Positions 22,011 to 54,522 of a stretch of 64,000 nt of DNA are shown here, piece by piece. This DNA is from Draconibacterium aestuarii (GTDB lineage Bacteria; Bacteroidota; Bacteroidia; Bacteroidales; Prolixibacteraceae). The notes beneath the pieces were generated by a model. The model was not told the origin of the DNA. It worked only from the letters and a program-made list of their open reading frames with translations, and made no database searches. The DNA is taken from the NCBI GenBank assembly GCA_026671195.1, contig JAPOHD010000007.1, positions 124,001-188,000 on the forward strand, written 5' to 3'. The number at the start of each line of letters is the position of its first letter. The first letter of the stretch is position 1. The position numbers and the translations under genes are program-made.

Positions 22011-23069
22011 TTAAATTGTTCCTTCTCTCCGTCTGATTTCTCTTACTGCATCAACCATCGCCTGAAAACCTTCAACGGGGATATAATCAGGTATTGAATT
22101 CCCCGAGCCTAATCCATATCCTTTGGTAATGCTTCGGTATCGGGTACCCTTTTCTAACACCTCGCTAAAAACATCATCGTATTTGTTAAGCATTAAAAGA
22201 TTTAAGTCGAAGCCACCCAAAAGTCCAATTCTGTCATTATACAACTCTATCCATTTGTCGAAAGGAGCTATCTGGTCTTCGTTCGAGTGTTTTGCATCAA
22301 TTCCGACCCCAATTATTTCTTCCATTACATTGAATATCTTTCCACAACTGTGAAGGAGAAATTTCTTTTTTGCCCCATGAACTAAGTCAATAACCCTTTT
22401 GTACTGAGGTATAATATGTTCTTTTATGGTTTCGGGTTCCAGAAGAGTATTTGACTTAAATCCAAGGTCATCACCCATCCTGTAAAAGACAAAAATATCG
22501 TCGTAACGTTTTATCATTTCGGACCAGAGTGTTACATACAGATCACCAATTTTTTTATACAAATCAGCGAAAAGGTCAGGATCCAAATATTGCATTACTC
22601 TTAGATATTCGTAGCCTACCAGATCTTCGCTGGCTTCAAAAATCCCATAACCACAACCGCCATACGCTTTCATTCCTGCAGGCATTACCTTTCTGATTGC
22701 TTCTAAATGAGGAGTGTATTTTTCCCAGAAAATTCTCGGAATATCATCAAAAGGAAATTTTTCAAAATCCTCGCGATTTTGAATAGGACCTTTCATGCCA
22801 CCTTTAATTGCTCCATGCCCCGGAAAAACCTCACAAACAAGTGCTTCATATGAGAAAGCATCGTATTCATTTTTTTTCCAGAATCCAATTACTTTTTTAT
22901 AATGTTCTTCAAGATCGGCTTGTGTGTTTCCAAATGGAATTTCTTCACCCAGGTATTTCTCAATAAATGGAAGATCAATATTATGTTCATACAATGGAAG
23001 CCTTCCAGGCTTTTCGTTGTATAACACTTTCAGTAAGTTTCTATAATCAGGTTGAAAAGTATTCATCAT
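22011..23069 (-). CDS. URO-D superfamily protein, corrinoid methyltransferase-like
   Basis: 352 residues, soluble, no signal. The uroporphyrinogen decarboxylase fold includes haem-pathway HemE and the methyltransferases MtaA/MtbA that move methyl groups between corrinoid proteins and thiols. HSCG at 240-243 carries the His and Cys that are zinc ligands in the MtaA/MtbA branch. HemE's substrate motifs are not seen. Location in a glycan PUL beside a second URO-D gene, a GH38-like enzyme and a sugar importer suggests handling of a methylated sugar, but no corrinoid protein is encoded in the window. Spacing is 19 bases from the preceding gene. Confidence 0.75.
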   Translation of the reverse strand: MMNTFQPDYRNLLKVLYNEKPGRLPLYEHNIDLPFIEKYLGEEIPFGNTQADLEEHYKKVIGFWKKNEYDAFSYEALVCEVFPGHGAIKGGMKGPIQNREDFEKFPFDDIPRIFWEKYTPHLEAIRKVMPAGMKAYGGCGYGIFEASEDLVGYEYLRVMQYLDPDLFADLYKKIGDLYVTLWSEMIKRYDDIFVFYRMGDDLGFKSNTLLEPETIKEHIIPQYKRVIDLVHGAKKKFLLHSCGKIFNVMEEIIGVGIDAKHSNEDQIAPFDKWIELYNDRIGLLGGFDLNLLMLNKYDDVFSEVLEKGTRYRSITKGYGLGSGNSIPDYIPVEGFQAMVDAVREIRRREGTI

Positions 23070-23088
23070 ATTAAAATTTAGGTAGTTT

Positions 23089-24153
23089 CTATAAAATTGG
23101 ATAATTGCCGTATTCTTTTACCGCAGCAATAAATGCCAGAACATTTTCGGTCGAAATGTCATCGTGGATACTATGATCTGTAGCAATAATGTAGCCTCCA
23201 CCAGGTGCCCCAAGACGAATACATTCTTTCACTTCAGTTTTTATGGTTTCAGGAGTACCGGTAACCATAGTCGTTTTATTGTTTACATTTCCAACAGGAC
23301 AGATTTTTCCCTGAAACTTTGTTTTAACCAACTGCAGATCCATTCCGGCAGATTTTTCAACAGGATGATATCCTTTTATTCCGGTATTTACCAAATCGTC
23401 TAAAACATCCCAGATATTGCCGTCGTTATGCATAATTACAGGAACTCCCAGTTCTGTAAGTCCTTTTACCAATCGCTCAAACGCGGGAATGAAAAATTCC
23501 CTGAATTGTTCCGGAGAAATAAGTAATGCATTTGTTCCTCCCCAATCGTCCGATATCTGGAACGCATCTATACCTCCCTCATTAAATGCCAGAGTAGCCG
23601 CCTCAATTGCCCAGTCGACGTATGCTTCATTCATTTCATGAATCAGTTCGGGATCCATAAATAAATTCATTGAAAAACTTTCGAAGTCAGAAAAATACCA
23701 TGAAGCCATTGTAAAAGGCCCGAGTAAACCAACCACAATGGCAAGATTACCTTTGTTTGCCTGAACAGCTTCTTGAATTATTTTTGTTCTGTAAGGTGTC
23801 TTTACTTCGGGTAATTTATAGTTACCCCAATCCGTTCTGTCCTTAACGGGACATGCTACCTAGGCAATAATTGGCCATCCGTTTTTTTTGTAAGTTACGC
23901 CCCATTCGTCCTTATAAATTTCATTTTCCTGATGGGGAGTTTCTTCAATACCACAAAAACCATTAATGGGTACCCATAACATATCAATTCCTACTTTTGT
24001 CGCCAGCTCAGCCTGAGCTGCTCCCTCATACAAAACTGTATTGTAACCCAATATTTCCTTTTGCAGCTTTAAGCTAAAAAGATGTTCTGCTATTGGTACC
24101 CTATCCGGTGTTCCACCGTTCAGTGCTGTTAAAAAACGTTCTTTTGGTGTCAT
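23089..24153 (-). pseudogene. second URO-D superfamily gene with an in-frame TAG at codon 98
   Basis: One open frame of 355 codons is interrupted only by TAG at 23860-23862. The frame continues without shift through ACPVKDRTDWGNYKLPEVK into VGLLGPFTMASWYFSDFES and on to the stop at 23089. The first 97 codons start MTPKERFLTALNGGTPDRVP, typical of this family. The stop falls in WPIIA*VACPVKD, where a Gln would fit, so a single CAG to TAG change explains it. The zinc motif reads HNDG here rather than HSCG. Either it is a recent pseudogene or the stop is read through. Bacteroidota are not known to use pyrrolysine. Confidence 0.8.
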
Positions 24154-30787: not shown

Positions 30788-33700
30788 TTAAAATTTAATA
30801 TTAAAACCAAATGATACTACCTTATTTTGCGGATAGGCCAGAAATCTTCCACTTCCTTCTCTTTCGGGATCGAGTCCTTCATATTTTGTGAAGGTCAGCA
30901 AATTATCGCCTGAGAAATAAATACGAACATTATCTATTCCCAATTCCTCTATCCATCTTGAGGGCAGGGTATATCCAAGCTGTAAAGCTTTTAATCGCAA
31001 ATATGAATTATCTTTTAAACGATAAGTTGAATTTCTGCCATAAGAGATTGGATCACCAATCATAACTGTTGTTGTTGAATGATTTTCAGGCGTCCAGGCC
31101 TCTTCCAAAATCTTTTTTGTTGGAGGAGATCCTTGTACAAATGGTTCAAATCCCCAACCACTAACAAACGTTTTTTGTCCTGCAACACCCTGAAATAGTG
31201 CGTAGATATCAAATCCTTTCCAGTCGGCGCCTAAATTGAAAGCATAAGTGGCTGAAGGGAACACACCTTTTTCCATTGGTACCCTGTCATAATTGTCAAT
31301 TTTGTTATCAGGTACTCCATCAGGTCCACTAACGTCTTTAAATTTAAGCATTCCCGGTTGTGTATTTGCACCATACTGACTTGGCGAATTGGCCACCTCT
31401 TCTGCAGATTGAAAAATCCCTTCCACTTGTAGCAAATAAAAAGTATTCCAAGGCCTTCCTTCTTCCCGTAAATACCATCCACCATCCTGAACTGCACCAT
31501 ATTTCATCAGCTTATTTTTATATGAACTTAAAATAACCTGGGCATAAAAGTTCATTCCCGTAAGTGCACCTGATTTAATCTGGTCTCTGTAAGTTAAGTC
31601 CAAATCGAAACCAACATTCTGCATTTCACCATCATTAATTGTCGGAGCAGATAAACCAACAACTCCAGTTGTTTGAGCAGAACGAAGTATATCTTTCGTG
31701 TACTTCTTATATACATCAATGCTCATTGATAGTTTATTGAAAAGTGTAAGGTCTAATCCTACATCTGTAGTCGTGGTGGTTTCCCACATAATATTACGGT
31801 TATTTAAACTTGTCTGGGCCACACCTTGCGTAAGAGAAGTATTATCGAATGAATAGGCTCCTGTAAAACTAAGCATGGCCTGGTAAGGATATAAACCGAT
31901 ATTCTGGTTACCTAGTTTACCCCATGATCCCCTGATTTTTACATTTGACAACCAACCTTTAGTTGATTCCATAAACGCTTCTTCACTTAAACGCCAGGCT
32001 GCCGAGAATGATGGGAAGACCCCCCATCGTGATTCAGAAGGCAACCTTGAAGTTCCATCATAACGCACATTCCCTTCAAAAAGATATTTGCTTTTATAAT
32101 TATAAGTCAACCTTCCGAACAAAGACTTTAATGCCCAGGCATTGCTACTCCCTTTTGTATATTGTCCATCAGTTGCTGCGGCATTTATTTCCGGAGTATA
32201 CGGTGAAGCAAAACCCTTTCTGTATCCTTGCAGATATTCGTAATTGTATTCTTCCTGACTATACCCGGCCAAAGCACCAAAATTATGATTTTCAATACTT
32301 TTATCATAATTCAGAGTAGAATAAACATTTGTGTATAACTCATCGCTATGCGTTTTTCTCATCCATGATGATAAAGCATATCCTTTAACCGAAGAATCTC
32401 TGTACAAACGCTCTGTGAGGTTGTTGGGGATATACTCCATTACTTTATTATAACCATATCTTGCAGCACCTTTAATATTCCAGTGTAATCCTTCTACTAT
32501 TTCGTAATCAGACCACAATTGAGCAGATGTGGTGTAATTTTCATCTGTCCTGAATTCTTCTTTTAATTTTAGGTATGGATTCCAGTTATTAAATTCAAAT
32601 TCATATGCTCTCCATGAATAATGAAGTCCATCTGTTGTTATTGGTAACCGAGTAGGAGCCTGAGCCAGTACCGTTAAATAATAATTGGATTGTCCTGTTC
32701 TTTCACTATTAGTAAATCCCTTTTTCAACAAAATGTTTCCACCCACTTTAAGTTTTTCACTTACCTCAGAGACAATATTTAGCTGTGCATCATATCGCCT
32801 GTACCTGAATGCTTCCATTGTACCTTGCTGATCTGAATATCCAACAGACAAATTGTAACGGGTTTTGTCACTACCACCACTGACACTTAAATTATGCATA
32901 ATGGTAGGAGAAGCATTTATCATATAATCCTGCCAATCGAAACTCGGATACTCATCAGAAGGATTCTCGTATTTGGCAATCTCTGATTCAGGATACATTT
33001 TAGCAGTAATCGGTGTCCCATAATTTTTATTTATTATATCTGTATTCCAGGCTCTCATATAATCTGGAGAATAGGTTACGAGGTCAACTAGTTTGGTTGG
33101 CGTATTTACTCCGTAATTAAAATCGTATTCAACAGTAAGTTTTCCTTTTTTGCCACTTTTAGTAGTAACCAGAATAACTCCGTTTGCTGCTCGCGAACCA
33201 TATATTGAAGCGGATGCTGCATCTTTTAATACAGAAATTGACTCTATACTTTTGGGATTAATTGAAGAAAGCGATCCCGGCACACCATCAATAAGTACCA
33301 ATGGAGAAGAACCAGCACCACTAAAAGTACCTTGCCCCCTGATTTTTATATCAATACCTCCTTCCTGAGGTTGGCCATTGGCCTGAGTAACTTGTACACC
33401 AGGTAAAACTCCTTGTAACATTGAAGCGGTATTGGTAACAGGCCTCTTTGCCAGGGTTTCGCCCTGAACTGTTGATACTGAACCGGTAAGGTTAATTTTC
33501 TTTTGTGTTCCATATCCAACGGCAACTACTTCTTCAATCCCAATGGCATCTGTTTTCATTGCAATGTTGATTGAGGTTTGGGTACCCACTTCAACTTCCT
33601 GGGTAAGCATACCAACAAAAGAAAAAACCAGCGCGGCACCGTCAGGAATATTTGAGATGGTATAATTACCATCCATATTGGTAACTGTACCATTTGTTGT

Positions 33701-34153
33701 TCCTTTAATAATTACTGTAACTCCAGGTAGTGGTTGGCCAGCTTCATCGGTTACATTCCCGCTTACAGATTTTTGTTGTGGAGCGACCGTAAATTTCGGG
33801 CTTATTACAATTTGATTGTTTATCCGGTGAAAGGTTACATCTTCATCAGGAAATAATTCATTTAGGATTTCATCGATACTTGCATCCTGCATATCAATAT
33901 CGACCTTACGTGTAACATCCACCAGATCTTTATTATACATGAATCCAATTTCAAATTGATTTTCAAGTTCCAAGAGAACTTTTTCGATCGTTACATTTCT
34001 GTAATCTACCGAAATTTTTCCCTGAGCCAGGGTATTTCCGGCAATCGACTGAAACACAATAAATATTATTACTAAAACAGTTAATTTCATTTTTAATAAT
34101 AGATTTCGAAAGTTAGGATAAAATATCCCTCTCTCCGTTACTAATTTTTTCAT
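30788..34153 (-). CDS. SusC-like TonB-dependent receptor with STN domain (PUL B)
   Basis: 1121 residues, full length. A basic leader comes before a hydrophobic signal (about 22-43). The STN domain is at about 46-112 and the carboxypeptidase-regulatory-like domain at about 130-215 (GQPLPGVTVIIKGTTNG). The TonB box is EEVVAVGYG, and the plug is at about 225-345 (SLSSINPKSIESISVLKDA, SRAANGVILVTTKSG). The 22-stranded barrel ends in a C-terminal aromatic (FGFNIKF). It imports glycan fragments with its SusD partner and signals to FecR through the STN domain. Its start codon lies on an antisense-strand TAAATTTG box (34153-34160). Confidence 0.95.
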   Translation of the reverse strand: MKKLVTERGIFYPNFRNLLLKMKLTVLVIIFIVFQSIAGNTLAQGKISVDYRNVTIEKVLLELENQFEIGFMYNKDLVDVTRKVDIDMQDASIDEILNELFPDEDVTFHRINNQIVISPKFTVAPQQKSVSGNVTDEAGQPLPGVTVIIKGTTNGTVTNMDGNYTISNIPDGAALVFSFVGMLTQEVEVGTQTSINIAMKTDAIGIEEVVAVGYGTQKKINLTGSVSTVQGETLAKRPVTNTASMLQGVLPGVQVTQANGQPQEGGIDIKIRGQGTFSGAGSSPLVLIDGVPGSLSSINPKSIESISVLKDAASASIYGSRAANGVILVTTKSGKKGKLTVEYDFNYGVNTPTKLVDLVTYSPDYMRAWNTDIINKNYGTPITAKMYPESEIAKYENPSDEYPSFDWQDYMINASPTIMHNLSVSGGSDKTRYNLSVGYSDQQGTMEAFRYRRYDAQLNIVSEVSEKLKVGGNILLKKGFTNSERTGQSNYYLTVLAQAPTRLPITTDGLHYSWRAYEFEFNNWNPYLKLKEEFRTDENYTTSAQLWSDYEIVEGLHWNIKGAARYGYNKVMEYIPNNLTERLYRDSSVKGYALSSWMRKTHSDELYTNVYSTLNYDKSIENHNFGALAGYSQEEYNYEYLQGYRKGFASPYTPEINAAATDGQYTKGSSNAWALKSLFGRLTYNYKSKYLFEGNVRYDGTSRLPSESRWGVFPSFSAAWRLSEEAFMESTKGWLSNVKIRGSWGKLGNQNIGLYPYQAMLSFTGAYSFDNTSLTQGVAQTSLNNRNIMWETTTTTDVGLDLTLFNKLSMSIDVYKKYTKDILRSAQTTGVVGLSAPTINDGEMQNVGFDLDLTYRDQIKSGALTGMNFYAQVILSSYKNKLMKYGAVQDGGWYLREEGRPWNTFYLLQVEGIFQSAEEVANSPSQYGANTQPGMLKFKDVSGPDGVPDNKIDNYDRVPMEKGVFPSATYAFNLGADWKGFDIYALFQGVAGQKTFVSGWGFEPFVQGSPPTKKILEEAWTPENHSTTTVMIGDPISYGRNSTYRLKDNSYLRLKALQLGYTLPSRWIEELGIDNVRIYFSGDNLLTFTKYEGLDPEREGSGRFLAYPQNKVVSFGFNIKF

Positions 34154-34165
34154 AAATTTGTAATT

Positions 34166-34238
34166 GATTAATTTAAACGATTAATTAAAAACTCAGGTTT
34201 GATGTGGGTAATGTTGGAGCATTACTCACATTTTTTTT
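34166..34238 (+). ncRNA. candidate cis-antisense RNA to the susC leader (locus B)
   Basis: On the plus strand TAAATTTG (34153-34160) fits the -7 box and overlaps the susC start codon. The transcript would end at the hairpin at 34202-34231 (12 bp with one G-U, loop TTGGAG) and eight T (34231-34238). Length is about 73 nt, close to DonS-type RNAs. The hairpin core ATGTTGGAGCAT parallels ATGTTGACGCAT at locus A and ATGTTAGAGCAT at locus C. The 5' end is an estimate. Confidence 0.65.
34202..34238 (+). terminator. intrinsic terminator on the plus strand, fecR-susC gap, locus B
   Basis: Stem 34202-34213 with 34220-34231, loop TTGGAG, G-U at the same place as in locus A, and T-run 34231-34238. Thirteen bases further lies TACATAGGCA (34251-34260), also present at locus A (1677-1686). 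Confidence 0.75.
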
Positions 34239-34268
34239 GATAGTTAGATTTACATAGGCATTAAAATT

Positions 34269-35369
34269 TTATTGGTTCACTATTCTTTTAGTATCTTTTA
34301 TAATAATTACACGTGCCTGAGTATAGGAGAAATCATCATTTTGTTTTGGTTTAATGTACCTGTATTTTATGGGGGCCGAAAGTGTCAGGAAATCCAATAC
34401 CTGCTCAAAACTCTCTCCCTTTAATATGGCATTGTACTTATAATCTGCAACATCTTCATCTTCAATACGAATTGAAACATTATAACGTCTTTCCAAAGTT
34501 CGAACGATTGTTGCCAGTGTAGCATCCCTGAAGATAAGTACTCCGTCTTTCCACTTTATAAACCTATCGATATCTGTTTCAACGATTTCGAGGATGCGTT
34601 TTTGTTTATTATATTTCGATATCTCCCCCGGTTTCAGGAATACTTCCTTATTACTTATTTTTAAAGATACTTTCCCTTCAGCAAGGGCTACAATCACATT
34701 ATCTTCGTTATTGTGTGCATTTACACTAAATTCAGTGCCATATACTTTTACCTGCGGCCCGGCGTTGTTTACAAAAAACGGGGTGTTATCTTTTTTAATT
34801 TCAAAATAAGCCTGGCCTTCCAGTGTAACTTCACGTTTATCGCCAGTAAAATATGCAGGGTATTTAATTTCCGAACCTGCATCCAGGCAAACGTTTGAAC
34901 CATCAGGTAATTGTAAATTAACCTGTCCGCCCAGGGGGGCATTAACAGTCACAGTTTTTTGCTGCAATTGTTTGGTTACCTGAGCAAATTCGCTCTTTAC
35001 AGACATGTTGTTTTGATATAACCAGATAACAGCGATGATAAGTGGAAGAATTAAAACAGCCGCAGCTCTCACCATCCATGACAAAATAATTTTGGCAGAT
35101 GAATATTGCTTTGTCGTATTCAGGCGTTTCTCTGTCTTATCCCAAATATATTCTATTTCGCTATTTGAAATATTTGGTGGTTGAAATTGAAGTAACTGAA
35201 CAGTTTTTATTGCTTCTTCCAATTCAGTTTGAAAATCGGGATGATTTTCCCTCCATTTTTCCCAATAACCGGATCCCGATTTATCTCTGCCCGACGCCCA
35301 GTTAACAAACTGGCTATCTGACATTAAGTTTTCGTATATATTATTCTTAAAACGATTCATTTTTCCCAT
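34269..35369 (-). CDS. FecR-type anti-sigma factor (PUL B)
   Basis: 366 residues. A cytoplasmic N-terminal region (about 1-90, with WDKTEKRLN) is followed by one membrane helix (about 93-117) and the periplasmic FecR domain (VNAPLGGQVNLQLPDGSNV, GQAYFEIKKD, VYGTEFSV). The C-terminal DUF4974-like domain spans about 280-355. It links the STN domain of SusC to the ECF sigma at 35412. It lies 42 bases after the sigma gene and 115 before susC. Confidence 0.93.
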   Translation of the reverse strand: MGKMNRFKNNIYENLMSDSQFVNWASGRDKSGSGYWEKWRENHPDFQTELEEAIKTVQLLQFQPPNISNSEIEYIWDKTEKRLNTTKQYSSAKIILSWMVRAAAVLILPLIIAVIWLYQNNMSVKSEFAQVTKQLQQKTVTVNAPLGGQVNLQLPDGSNVCLDAGSEIKYPAYFTGDKREVTLEGQAYFEIKKDNTPFFVNNAGPQVKVYGTEFSVNAHNNEDNVIVALAEGKVSLKISNKEVFLKPGEISKYNKQKRILEIVETDIDRFIKWKDGVLIFRDATLATIVRTLERRYNVSIRIEDEDVADYKYNAILKGESFEQVLDFLTLSAPIKYRYIKPKQNDDFSYTQARVIIIKDTKRIVNQ

Positions 35370-35411: not shown

Positions 35412-36014
35412 TTACAACCTTTTTTTTGAAAAAAGTGCGAAAAGGATAAGTTCAATGTTATCATGACCGTGAAAACCAATGTCTTTCAAATCGTTCCTCA
35501 GCTTTTCCAATGCCCGAAATAACAGGTTTCGAACCGATTGAACATTCATTCTCAACACCTCTGCCAACTCTTCAAAACACAGGTTATGAAAAAACCTCAG
35601 CATTATAACTTCACGTTGTCGTTCTGATAACTTATTTAAACTAACCACCAGTCTTTCGTTTAAATGTCTGGAGTCTTCTTCATTTATGAGAAAATCTTCG
35701 ATAGTCAGTGTAAATGGTTCAAGGTAATTACTATCTTTTTCTGAAACGTAATGTCTTTTTGATTCATGAATAAGTTCATTTCGTACAGCAACTAACAAAT
35801 AAGACTTTACTTTAACCACCTGCCCGAGATTATCTCTCTTTTCCCATAACTGTACAAACATTTCCTGAATAACATCTTTCACAAGTTCAGGTATCGGAAC
35901 AATCTTTAGTCCATAGAAATACAATTCCTTGTAATAAATTTGAAAGATTTTCCCCAAAGCTTCCCGGTCGCCATCCTTAAAAAGAGACCAGTATTTTTGA
36001 TTGTTTTGCACCAA
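35412..36014 (-). CDS. ECF RNA polymerase sigma factor (PUL B)
   Basis: 200 residues. Region 2 is at about 15-85 (LYFYGLKIVPIPELVKDVIQ, EMFVQLWEKRDNL). Region 4 is at about 125-180 (LSERQREVIMLRFFHNLCFE, then ELAEVLRMNVQSVRNLLFRA). It activates the PUL B promoters when FecR is relieved. A TATATTTG box lies upstream at 36045-36052 on the same strand, giving a leader of about 25 bases. So this gene probably also has a housekeeping promoter. Confidence 0.93.
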   Translation of the reverse strand: MVQNNQKYWSLFKDGDREALGKIFQIYYKELYFYGLKIVPIPELVKDVIQEMFVQLWEKRDNLGQVVKVKSYLLVAVRNELIHESKRHYVSEKDSNYLEPFTLTIEDFLINEEDSRHLNERLVVSLNKLSERQREVIMLRFFHNLCFEELAEVLRMNVQSVRNLLFRALEKLRNDLKDIGFHGHDNIELILFALFSKKRL

Positions 36015-54100: not shown

Positions 54101-54430
54101 AATCGTATAAGTAATATCTGTTCCGTTAAAAATATCCGTCAGAATTTCTTCTACGGATGCATTTTGGGTTTGCACTGTTACCCTGCGGTTCAGATCAACT
54201 TGTTCGTTCTGATAGAAGAAGCGAAATTCGCTGTTGTCTTCAATTTCATTTAAAACCTCGATAACCTTTTGGTTTTTTAGGTTGATCGAAAATTTAACTG
54301 ACTGAGAATATACCGATGCAGAAACCTGAAGCATCCCCGCAAGTAGTAATATCCAAGTAAGTTTCATAATAATCATTAATTTTCGTGCCATCCTGAAATA
54401 AGGAATGGAACGGTTAATAAAAAATTTCAT
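51101..54430 (-). CDS. SusC-like TonB-dependent receptor with STN domain (PUL C)
   Basis: 1109 residues, full length. The leader and signal are at about 1-44 and the STN domain at about 46-115 (VIEVLNEIEDNSEFRFFYQN). The carboxypeptidase-regulatory-like domain follows (GEPLPGVTVLIKGTTSG), then the TonB box EEVVAIGYG, the plug with GLSVRGRTSLSGGTSPLIVL, and the barrel ending FGVELSF. It is clearly different from the receptor of PUL B, so the imported glycan should differ. Its start overlaps an antisense TAAATTTG box at 54430-54437. Confidence 0.95.
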   Translation of the reverse strand: MKFFINRSIPYFRMARKLMIIMKLTWILLLAGMLQVSASVYSQSVKFSINLKNQKVIEVLNEIEDNSEFRFFYQNEQVDLNRRVTVQTQNASVEEILTDIFNGTDITYTIKEEKLILLVNENIVNTTKTDIQQDKIISGKVTDENGEPLPGVTVLIKGTTSGVVSNVNGEYSLNGIPEDAVLQFSFVGMKTQEVEVGSQATVNITLVADAIGIEEVVAIGYGIAKKSDLTGSVVRADLESFKEAPNTNIGVSLQGAIPGLNVGQTTSAGSSPGLSVRGRTSLSGGTSPLIVLDGIIFSGSFSEINPNDVASIDVLKDASSMAIYGAQAANGVLLITTRRGTSEKATFHYSGSYTFQSADALAMETRDEFLQKVRDVNYLNAYTEESGYLQANPDFDLESMLFDQTTKDGYNNGTEHDWWDACTQNAYIHTHQLSISGRSEKFNYYMSGSFTDQQNLIKNDNFERKTFRINLENKLTDWLTIGAQTNGSFRDLSGASPNMRMITLLNPMVSGYDSDGNFLVRMGSLTNPFLPTMNNDYDKQNSLTGNFYADIKIPYIKGLSYRLNYGNNYRWNQHYYSSEYNGEAKTGIAYKANFSRYDYTIDNILKYNKAINENNKIDVTLLYGARKNYSESTSANNKDYVDMSLGYHALELGSTPTVSSGAWEETYVYQMMRLNYNYKDKYLLTSTIRRDGSSRFASDNKIGYFPSVGGGWVISNEDFMSSVNWLDFLKFRFSYGINGNLVGRYSSLGLVSTGASYYFGDGVSTEFGREKTSLGNSSLGWERTKGINLGTDFAIYNGRLNGNIEYYKTTTNDLIYNIAIPNITGYSSITNNVGQIDNRGIEFSLTGNIVKKGDFNWEITANFSRNTNEIIALEGKDEDGDGVEDDLISSGLFIGRSIGSIYTYEIEGIYQVGDDVPKGYYLGTYKIKDQNDDGEIRPEDDRVIIGRTEPAYRFSIQNTLSYKNFTFKMFINSIQGGKDGYLAGNNPWSDGGYSGTENASKHSMFADIDYWTPSNPDAEYKIPGTNGAINPSPYKSRSFIRVQDVSLAYNFNKYQLQRFGIDGAKIYVSGKNLFTLTDWNGWDPETGQGYSTSGVPVMKAVSFGVELSF

Positions 54431-54442
54431 AAATTTGAATGT

Positions 54443-54522
54443 TTTAGTAATTAATTATGGTGTTAGAGCACCGTTATTAAACTCAAATGCCGGTTGATGT
54501 TAGAGCATCGCCGGCTTTTTTT
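54443..54522 (+). ncRNA. candidate cis-antisense RNA to the susC leader (locus C)
   Basis: The box TAAATTTG (54430-54437) overlaps the susC start codon on the opposite strand. Two hairpins follow: GGTG/CACC around TTAGAG (54459-54472), and the terminator hairpin GCCGG...CCGGC (54489-54515) with the same loop TTAGAG, then seven T (54516-54522). A transcript of about 80 nt is antisense to the whole susC leader. The two hairpins share a loop, a feature not seen at loci A and B. The 5' end is an estimate. Confidence 0.62.
54489..54522 (+). terminator. intrinsic terminator on the plus strand, fecR-susC gap, locus C
   Basis: Stem GCCGG/CCGGC plus GATG/CATC with one U-G pair and one bulged base, loop TTAGAG, then T 54516-54522. 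It resembles the terminators at 1630 and 34202 in position, loop and T-run. Confidence 0.72.

Follow-up and report, generated by a model that had tools for sequence, protein, structure and literature searches.

The window, that is the whole stretch of 64,000 nucleotides that was analysed, carries three ECF-sigma/fecR/susC switches (loci A, B and C), all on the minus strand. At locus B, the ORF list and protein matches place an ECF-type sigma gene at 35412–36014, a fecR anti-sigma gene at 34269–35369 and susC at 30788–34153, whose start codon appears on the plus strand as CAT at 34151–34153. On this plus strand, opposite susC, lies a candidate −7-type promoter box, TAAATTTG, at 34153–34160, which overlaps the start codon such that its first T faces the A of the susC ATG. 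Further along the same strand is a terminator hairpin (34202–34231, −16.6 kcal/mol), in which 34202–34213 pair with 34220–34231 to form a 12-bp stem with one G·U around the loop TTGGAG (34214–34219). It runs into eight T (34231–34238), the first of which doubles as the last stem base. Box, hairpin and T-run thus lie where an earlier note on this DNA had placed them, whereas its spacing of 70 bases was loose: the stem begins 49 nt and the T-run finishes 85 nt past the first box base. The predicted antisense RNA comprises 73 nt (34166–34238, plus strand), its 5' end being placed by the box spacing and by a preference for G about 12 nt past the first box T, and the region 34167–34238 folds with a z of −5.05 against 200 shuffles. 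A sigma-70 scan, which leaves Bacteroidota promoters uncovered, gave no promoter-like site at the box.

The same parts recur in the same order on the plus strand of loci A and C, as the note had claimed, but with the box read as TACATTTG at locus A and with a bulge in the stem at locus C. In both, as at locus B, the box has the form TAnnTTTG and its first T faces the A of the susC ATG. At locus A the box occupies 1546–1553 and the predicted RNA of 106 nt spans 1558–1663, with the hairpin at 1629–1658 and T to 1663 (fold z −5.15 against 200 shuffles for 1560–1664); its susC falls outside the ORF list and was read as junction L056. At locus C the box, again TAAATTTG, reads at 54430–54437, and the predicted RNA of about 82 nt spans 54441–54522, with the hairpin at 54489–54515 and T to 54522 (fold z −5.10 against 200 shuffles for 54444–54518). 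Locus C has a second plus-strand hairpin (54457–54474), without a T-run, whose loop TTAGAG is that of the terminator.

The hairpin cores are indeed nearly alike (ATGTTGACGCAT at 1638, ATGTTGGAGCAT at 34211 and ATGTTAGAGCAT at 54497): a pattern spanning them, which was itself written from the three cores, matches 3 times in the window versus 0.14 expected, and 0/100 shuffles reach 3. The G-U pair that had been described at one shared place dissolves upon counting by eye, which puts the wobbles inside stems A, B and C at 6, 7 and 5 pairs from the loop; the sole wobble common to all three is a possible U·G beside the loop (34214·34219 in B). Stem bases do vary while pairing is kept, yet this observation alone is a weak argument for a conserved structure, because terminators that have been chosen by their folding will show it in any case. 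All three hairpins have the makings of an intrinsic terminator, with a stable stem followed immediately by T in the antisense direction only.

Occurrence at fecR–susC junctions and in relatives

The whole assembly contains 38 FecR_C matches, from which 8 were dropped (7 weak ones within or adjacent to the following gene, plus L059, which is in a 919-aa frame), so that 30 junctions remained. L055, L058 and L060 among them, with gaps of 12, 32 and −44 nt, lack the unit and were left out since the genes there are not SusC. This was decided by reading the proteins because the SusC list scored 56 of 114 candidates, for which reason the 30 fecR-less susC genes used as controls are a sample. At 25 of the remaining 27 fecR–susC junctions, a TAnnTTT(G/A) box sits on the susC start codon and is followed by a hairpin and a T-run on the strand opposite susC; 23 of these hairpins were found by script at −12 kcal/mol or better, and those of L037 and L077 were added via a covariance model. 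The suggestion that every PUL of this type in the genome has its own antisense unit is thereby borne out, with two exceptions: L049, with a 30-nt gap, has a box but no hairpin, and L054 has a weak hairpin without a box.

We applied one generous box rule to these junctions and to the controls, which admits any in-frame ATG within 130 nt and G or A as the last base. By this rule the box occurs at 26/27 junctions, compared to 4/207 general ORF starts and 1/30 fecR-less susC genes. The script for the relatives' loci had favoured the in-frame ATG that bears a box, and the same rule was later applied to the controls. At the first ATG, CAAANNTATG is found at 0/207 long ORFs (from 400 kb) versus 16/30 junctions, a figure that predates the correction of two start codons; L040 was given its second ATG as start, and L077 a start set by hand. 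An ordinary start context is thus an unlikely explanation of the box, given 0/207 at first ATGs and 4/207 by the generous rule. Terminators on the antisense strand accompany 24/30 fecR junctions versus 4/30 fecR-less susC genes, and those on the sense strand 4/30 versus 9/30; with sense terminators at 4/30 fecR junctions, a sense-strand attenuator is unlikely. At L136 (G000:C20:405524-407124), one of the 4 fecR-less susC genes with an antisense terminator, a complete unit lies about 190 nt upstream of a susC that has no adjoining fecR, with its box where a 10-codon ORF, MKKHLHYLKT, starts. The box there lies off the susC start, which indicates that it follows the hairpin rather than the start of susC.

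The earlier note had also made its reading depend on hairpin and T-run persisting in near relatives that retain susC. Both persist in the nearest relatives found for SusC B: in L230 and L231 (52% and 49% identity) together with the box TAAATTTG, and in L091 (55% identity) with the variant box TACCTTGC. Bacteroidota bin63 (55% identity) has the hairpin and a variant box, and in Prolixibacteraceae UBA10471 the hairpin comes with TAAATTTA as box; both parts are absent from Telluribacter, where no fecR adjoins susC. In its two testable extrapolations, the earlier interpretation is hence supported at the sequence level.

More broadly, 28 junction loci were fetched around the window genome, 21 of them from the same genus; among the 20 of these that were read, the box is present in 20/20 and both parts in 17/20. 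Searching 37 genomes of the genus with SusC B yielded 29 further loci, of which 28 have a fecR (both parts in 26/28) and a lone fecR-less one has no box and a weak hairpin. In the order, 15/22 loci read have the box and 13/22 both parts; in the class outside the order, where gaps are <80 nt in 17/36, the numbers are 9/36 and 6/36; and outside the class 0/14 junctions read have both parts. L224 and L276 stand outside these counts, L147 and L239 are one junction, and the L157 junction (read as L258) has neither box nor hairpin. In 12 of 13 hand-picked pairs, the RNA region is more alike than the first 600 nt of susC, and pooled over these pairs identity is 86% in the hairpin, 82% in the linker and 71% in the 50 nt past the T-run. 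Read from sequence, these data show box, linker and one-sided terminator to be a unit under selection that is tied to fecR-controlled susC.

Box, hairpin and loop features

The Bacteroidota housekeeping promoter has TTTG or TTG at −33 and TAnnTTTG at −7. The box corresponds to the −7 element of this consensus. Among 96 distinct units (the sets of 78, 85, 94 and 96 units used here are non-independent, as they include orthologues) its two middle bases vary between constant flanks, a constancy owing in part to selection; the final position holds G in 18 and A in 7 of the 25 complete units of the genome itself, and G in 75% of the 96. For a TTG or TTTG at −33, no spacing exceeds 4/96 units. Immediately upstream of the box the sequence is T-rich, owing to AAA codons in susC. 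About 12 nt past the first box T, 55% of units have a G, which fits the expected RNA start provided that the box covers −12 to −5, the position taken for the −7 element from an excerpt of PMC9723704. We infer that the box is a promoter −7 element read by housekeeping-sigma polymerase. In most junction SusC proteins a second Met, at the signal peptide, is preceded by about 20 extra N-terminal residues, often MKK..., and the extra codons (34094–34153, minus strand, at locus B) underlie the antisense promoter region.

We built a covariance model, R1, from 33 hairpins. In the genome itself R1 has 16 matches at E ≤10, the best 11 of which (E ≤0.021) are without exception antisense and upstream of a susC; 7 of these are training sequences, among them hairpin B (E 1.3e-5), and 4 are not (L077, L136, L037 and locus C, the last with E 0.019). 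At junction L036 the match falls on the sense strand. Across the class, 45/296 genomes contain a match at E ≤0.01. Among 29 loci that were read, 14 sit at a fecR–susC junction in antisense orientation (13 of the 14 with a box, and 2 of the 14 training sequences) and 15 lie elsewhere; outside its own genome R1 is not specific. In the 33 hairpins 98.1% of paired positions pair and 10/11 pairs have changed on both sides, a covariation that we do not use as proof because these hairpins were picked by folding. A search of Rfam gave no match above the gathering score.

The loops show preferences of their own. A YUNNNR loop, a stricter form than YUNR, counted on either strand, is present in 16/21 units of the genome versus 22/124 generic terminators, and in 53 of 78 distinct units (25/78 are without), this pattern, like the twin loops and the start-stop pattern described below, having been spotted first and tested after. 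YU thus stands on the 5' side of the loop in one partner, as a U-turn would require, a likeness that is one of sequence pattern; some units have their U-turn on the sense strand. In the accessible part of PMC6562991, a YUNR U-turn in either partner is described as able to speed antisense pairing. The loop shape is unlikely to be a general habit of terminators in this genome, as GUUNNN(N)GC occurs in 2/124 generic terminators versus 7/21 units.

In 8 of 85 units with an upstream hairpin, the two hairpins share all six loop bases while their stems differ (L033, L034, L035, L046, which is locus C, L053, L160, L167 and L240; L033 and L167 are orthologues). Swapping loops between loci gives a mean of 0.54 and a maximum of 4 such cases. 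At five of six bases the excess is weak, with 12 cases versus 5.8 and a maximum of 12 in 200 swaps. The twin loop sequence is the same within one unit and different from locus to locus. Separately, the nearly identical orthologues L233 and L234 have the stem in common, the loop of one being the exact inverse of the other's, and a third unit, L250, has nearly the same stem with another loop.

A putative DonS-type brake on susC

A family of PUL antisense RNAs called DonS was reportedly described in Bacteroides fragilis by Cao et al. in 2016, so that such RNAs are, as a kind, already known from Bacteroides. According to the portions of the papers available to us, DonS RNAs are 78–128 nt long and lie opposite the 5' end of susC in mucosal-glycan PULs (PMC7366714), and DonS-type RNAs occur at 15 B. 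fragilis PULs, some of them shown to act negatively (PMC9723704). The predicted RNAs likewise lie opposite the susC 5' end, and their lengths of 73 (B), 82 (C) and 106 nt (A) follow from predicted ends. The pairing of DonS-type RNAs with sigma/anti-sigma PULs was the earlier note's own; excerpts of PMC7366714 speak of mucosal-glycan PULs. For B. thetaiotaomicron, excerpts report 32 annotated DonS-like antisense RNAs with both positive and negative PUL correlations (PMC10994844) and a canonical promoter for 52% of antisense RNAs (PMC7366714); these DonS-like RNAs also lie opposite susC homologues, a likeness drawn from descriptions and not from sequences. The units described here differ in lying outside Bacteroides and in being predicted from sequence. 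They also have a start-codon box, U-turn loop classes and twin loops; the papers searched, as far as their text was accessible and leaving aside the original DonS paper, mention neither start-codon box nor loop classes nor twin loops, nor such susC antisense RNAs outside Bacteroides.

Other small RNAs resemble the predicted ones in part. FopS/GibS, in the available sections of PMC11697453, are sRNAs present in multiple copies that act close to the start codon to prevent susC translation; they share the susC start region as target but act in trans through a common seed and are not encoded at each susC. In hok/Sok, pIP501 RNAII/RNAIII and bsrE/SR5, a YUNR loop speeds contact and some systems need two loop pairs, as set out in part of PMC6562991. 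These control plasmids or toxin-antitoxin pairs, and the likeness is one of working and not of homology.

We consider it likely that the unit encodes a DonS-type cis-antisense RNA that base-pairs with the leader of susC and reduces susC expression, which is the best explanation of the data we have; that the predicted RNA is expressed and represses is argued by analogy with DonS. RNA polymerase with the housekeeping sigma would read the box as a −7 element, and the RNA would run from a point some 13 nt upstream of the susC ATG, in leader coordinates, to the T-run, complementary to most of the susC leader while leaving the ATG itself uncovered. First contact would be a kiss between U-turn loops that then zips into a duplex, hiding the A/T-rich initiation region and lowering both susC translation and mRNA. 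Once sugar activates the ECF sigma, abundant susC mRNA would overrun the antisense RNA. The junction count of 25/27, the box controls, the one-sided terminators, conservation, the loops, L136 and the DonS precedent favour this reading. It is weakened by the lack of a −33 element, by boxes ending in A in a quarter of cases, by scarcity beyond the order and, in an excerpt of PMC10994844, by positive correlations of some B. thetaiotaomicron PUL antisense RNAs with their PUL. The recurrence of the design in many related bacteria makes it probable that such local braking of sugar-uptake genes is widespread.

The one-sidedness of the hairpin, which points to fecR, could also mean that it guards against stray antisense transcription, stopping it before fecR and sigma and leaving a short RNA without function. 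Such transcription would come from the AT-rich susC start, and the accessible text of PMC9723704 describes pervasive antisense transcription in flavobacteria. A guard would need neither a linker of 82% identity nor a loop preference nor twin loops, and it is scarce at fecR-less susC (4/30); we regard it as unlikely. Still less probable, in our estimate, is that box and hairpin act in the susC mRNA leader, as start-codon context and 5' stabilising stem-loop. The sense leader does fold (−12.9 kcal/mol, z −2.74), and sense-strand U-turns and the sense match at L036 would agree with such a role, whereas at most junctions the T-run is on the antisense side only, CAAATTTATG departs from the general start context (A, not T, at −3) and the box of L136 lies away from the susC start. 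Repression by polymerase collision at the susC start, the RNA product being irrelevant, would be compatible with two opposed transcription units that are predicted to overlap within about 110 nt; conserved or twin loops are not explained by collision, and we give this account very little weight.

Beyond the antisense brake itself, we tentatively raise the possibility, which we hold to be doubtful, of a class-wide RNA family with its promoter in the start codon of its target and loops that serve as an address code, built from an anticodon-like U-turn frame, YUNNNR, with a variable centre and sometimes doubled as one loop on two hairpins. Such a code, if true, would keep about 25 parallel PUL brakes apart in one cell. 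Recent work calls for functional study of PUL antisense RNAs, as stated in an excerpt of PMC10994844. Here, a single sequence signature, independent of RNA-seq, flags candidates at almost all ECF/anti-sigma susC genes of a genome and recurs in several families of the class. From it follow testable predictions of the 5' end, of the terminator and of which loop should be important. If the antisense reading is right, an RNA layer would be a standard component of the ECF/anti-sigma sugar switch.

Two further observations concern the surroundings of the unit. A sense element, TTGCCTATG (34250–34259 of the window, minus strand), is flanked by the fecR stop and the hairpin and is found at 34/65 junctions. 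For 29/45 ATGs of the element, codon 2 or 3 is a stop, versus 24/103 for other ATGs of the zone, and the element may represent either a start-stop mini-ORF or a portion of the susC promoter. A GCCTATG element might be a classical ECF promoter, but no −35 lies at a fixed distance from it. Elsewhere in the window, two adjoining genes at 22011–23736 are matches to the uroporphyrinogen decarboxylase family. For the gene at 23089–23736 the match starts at profile position 142, which leaves the N-terminal part either absent or located elsewhere.
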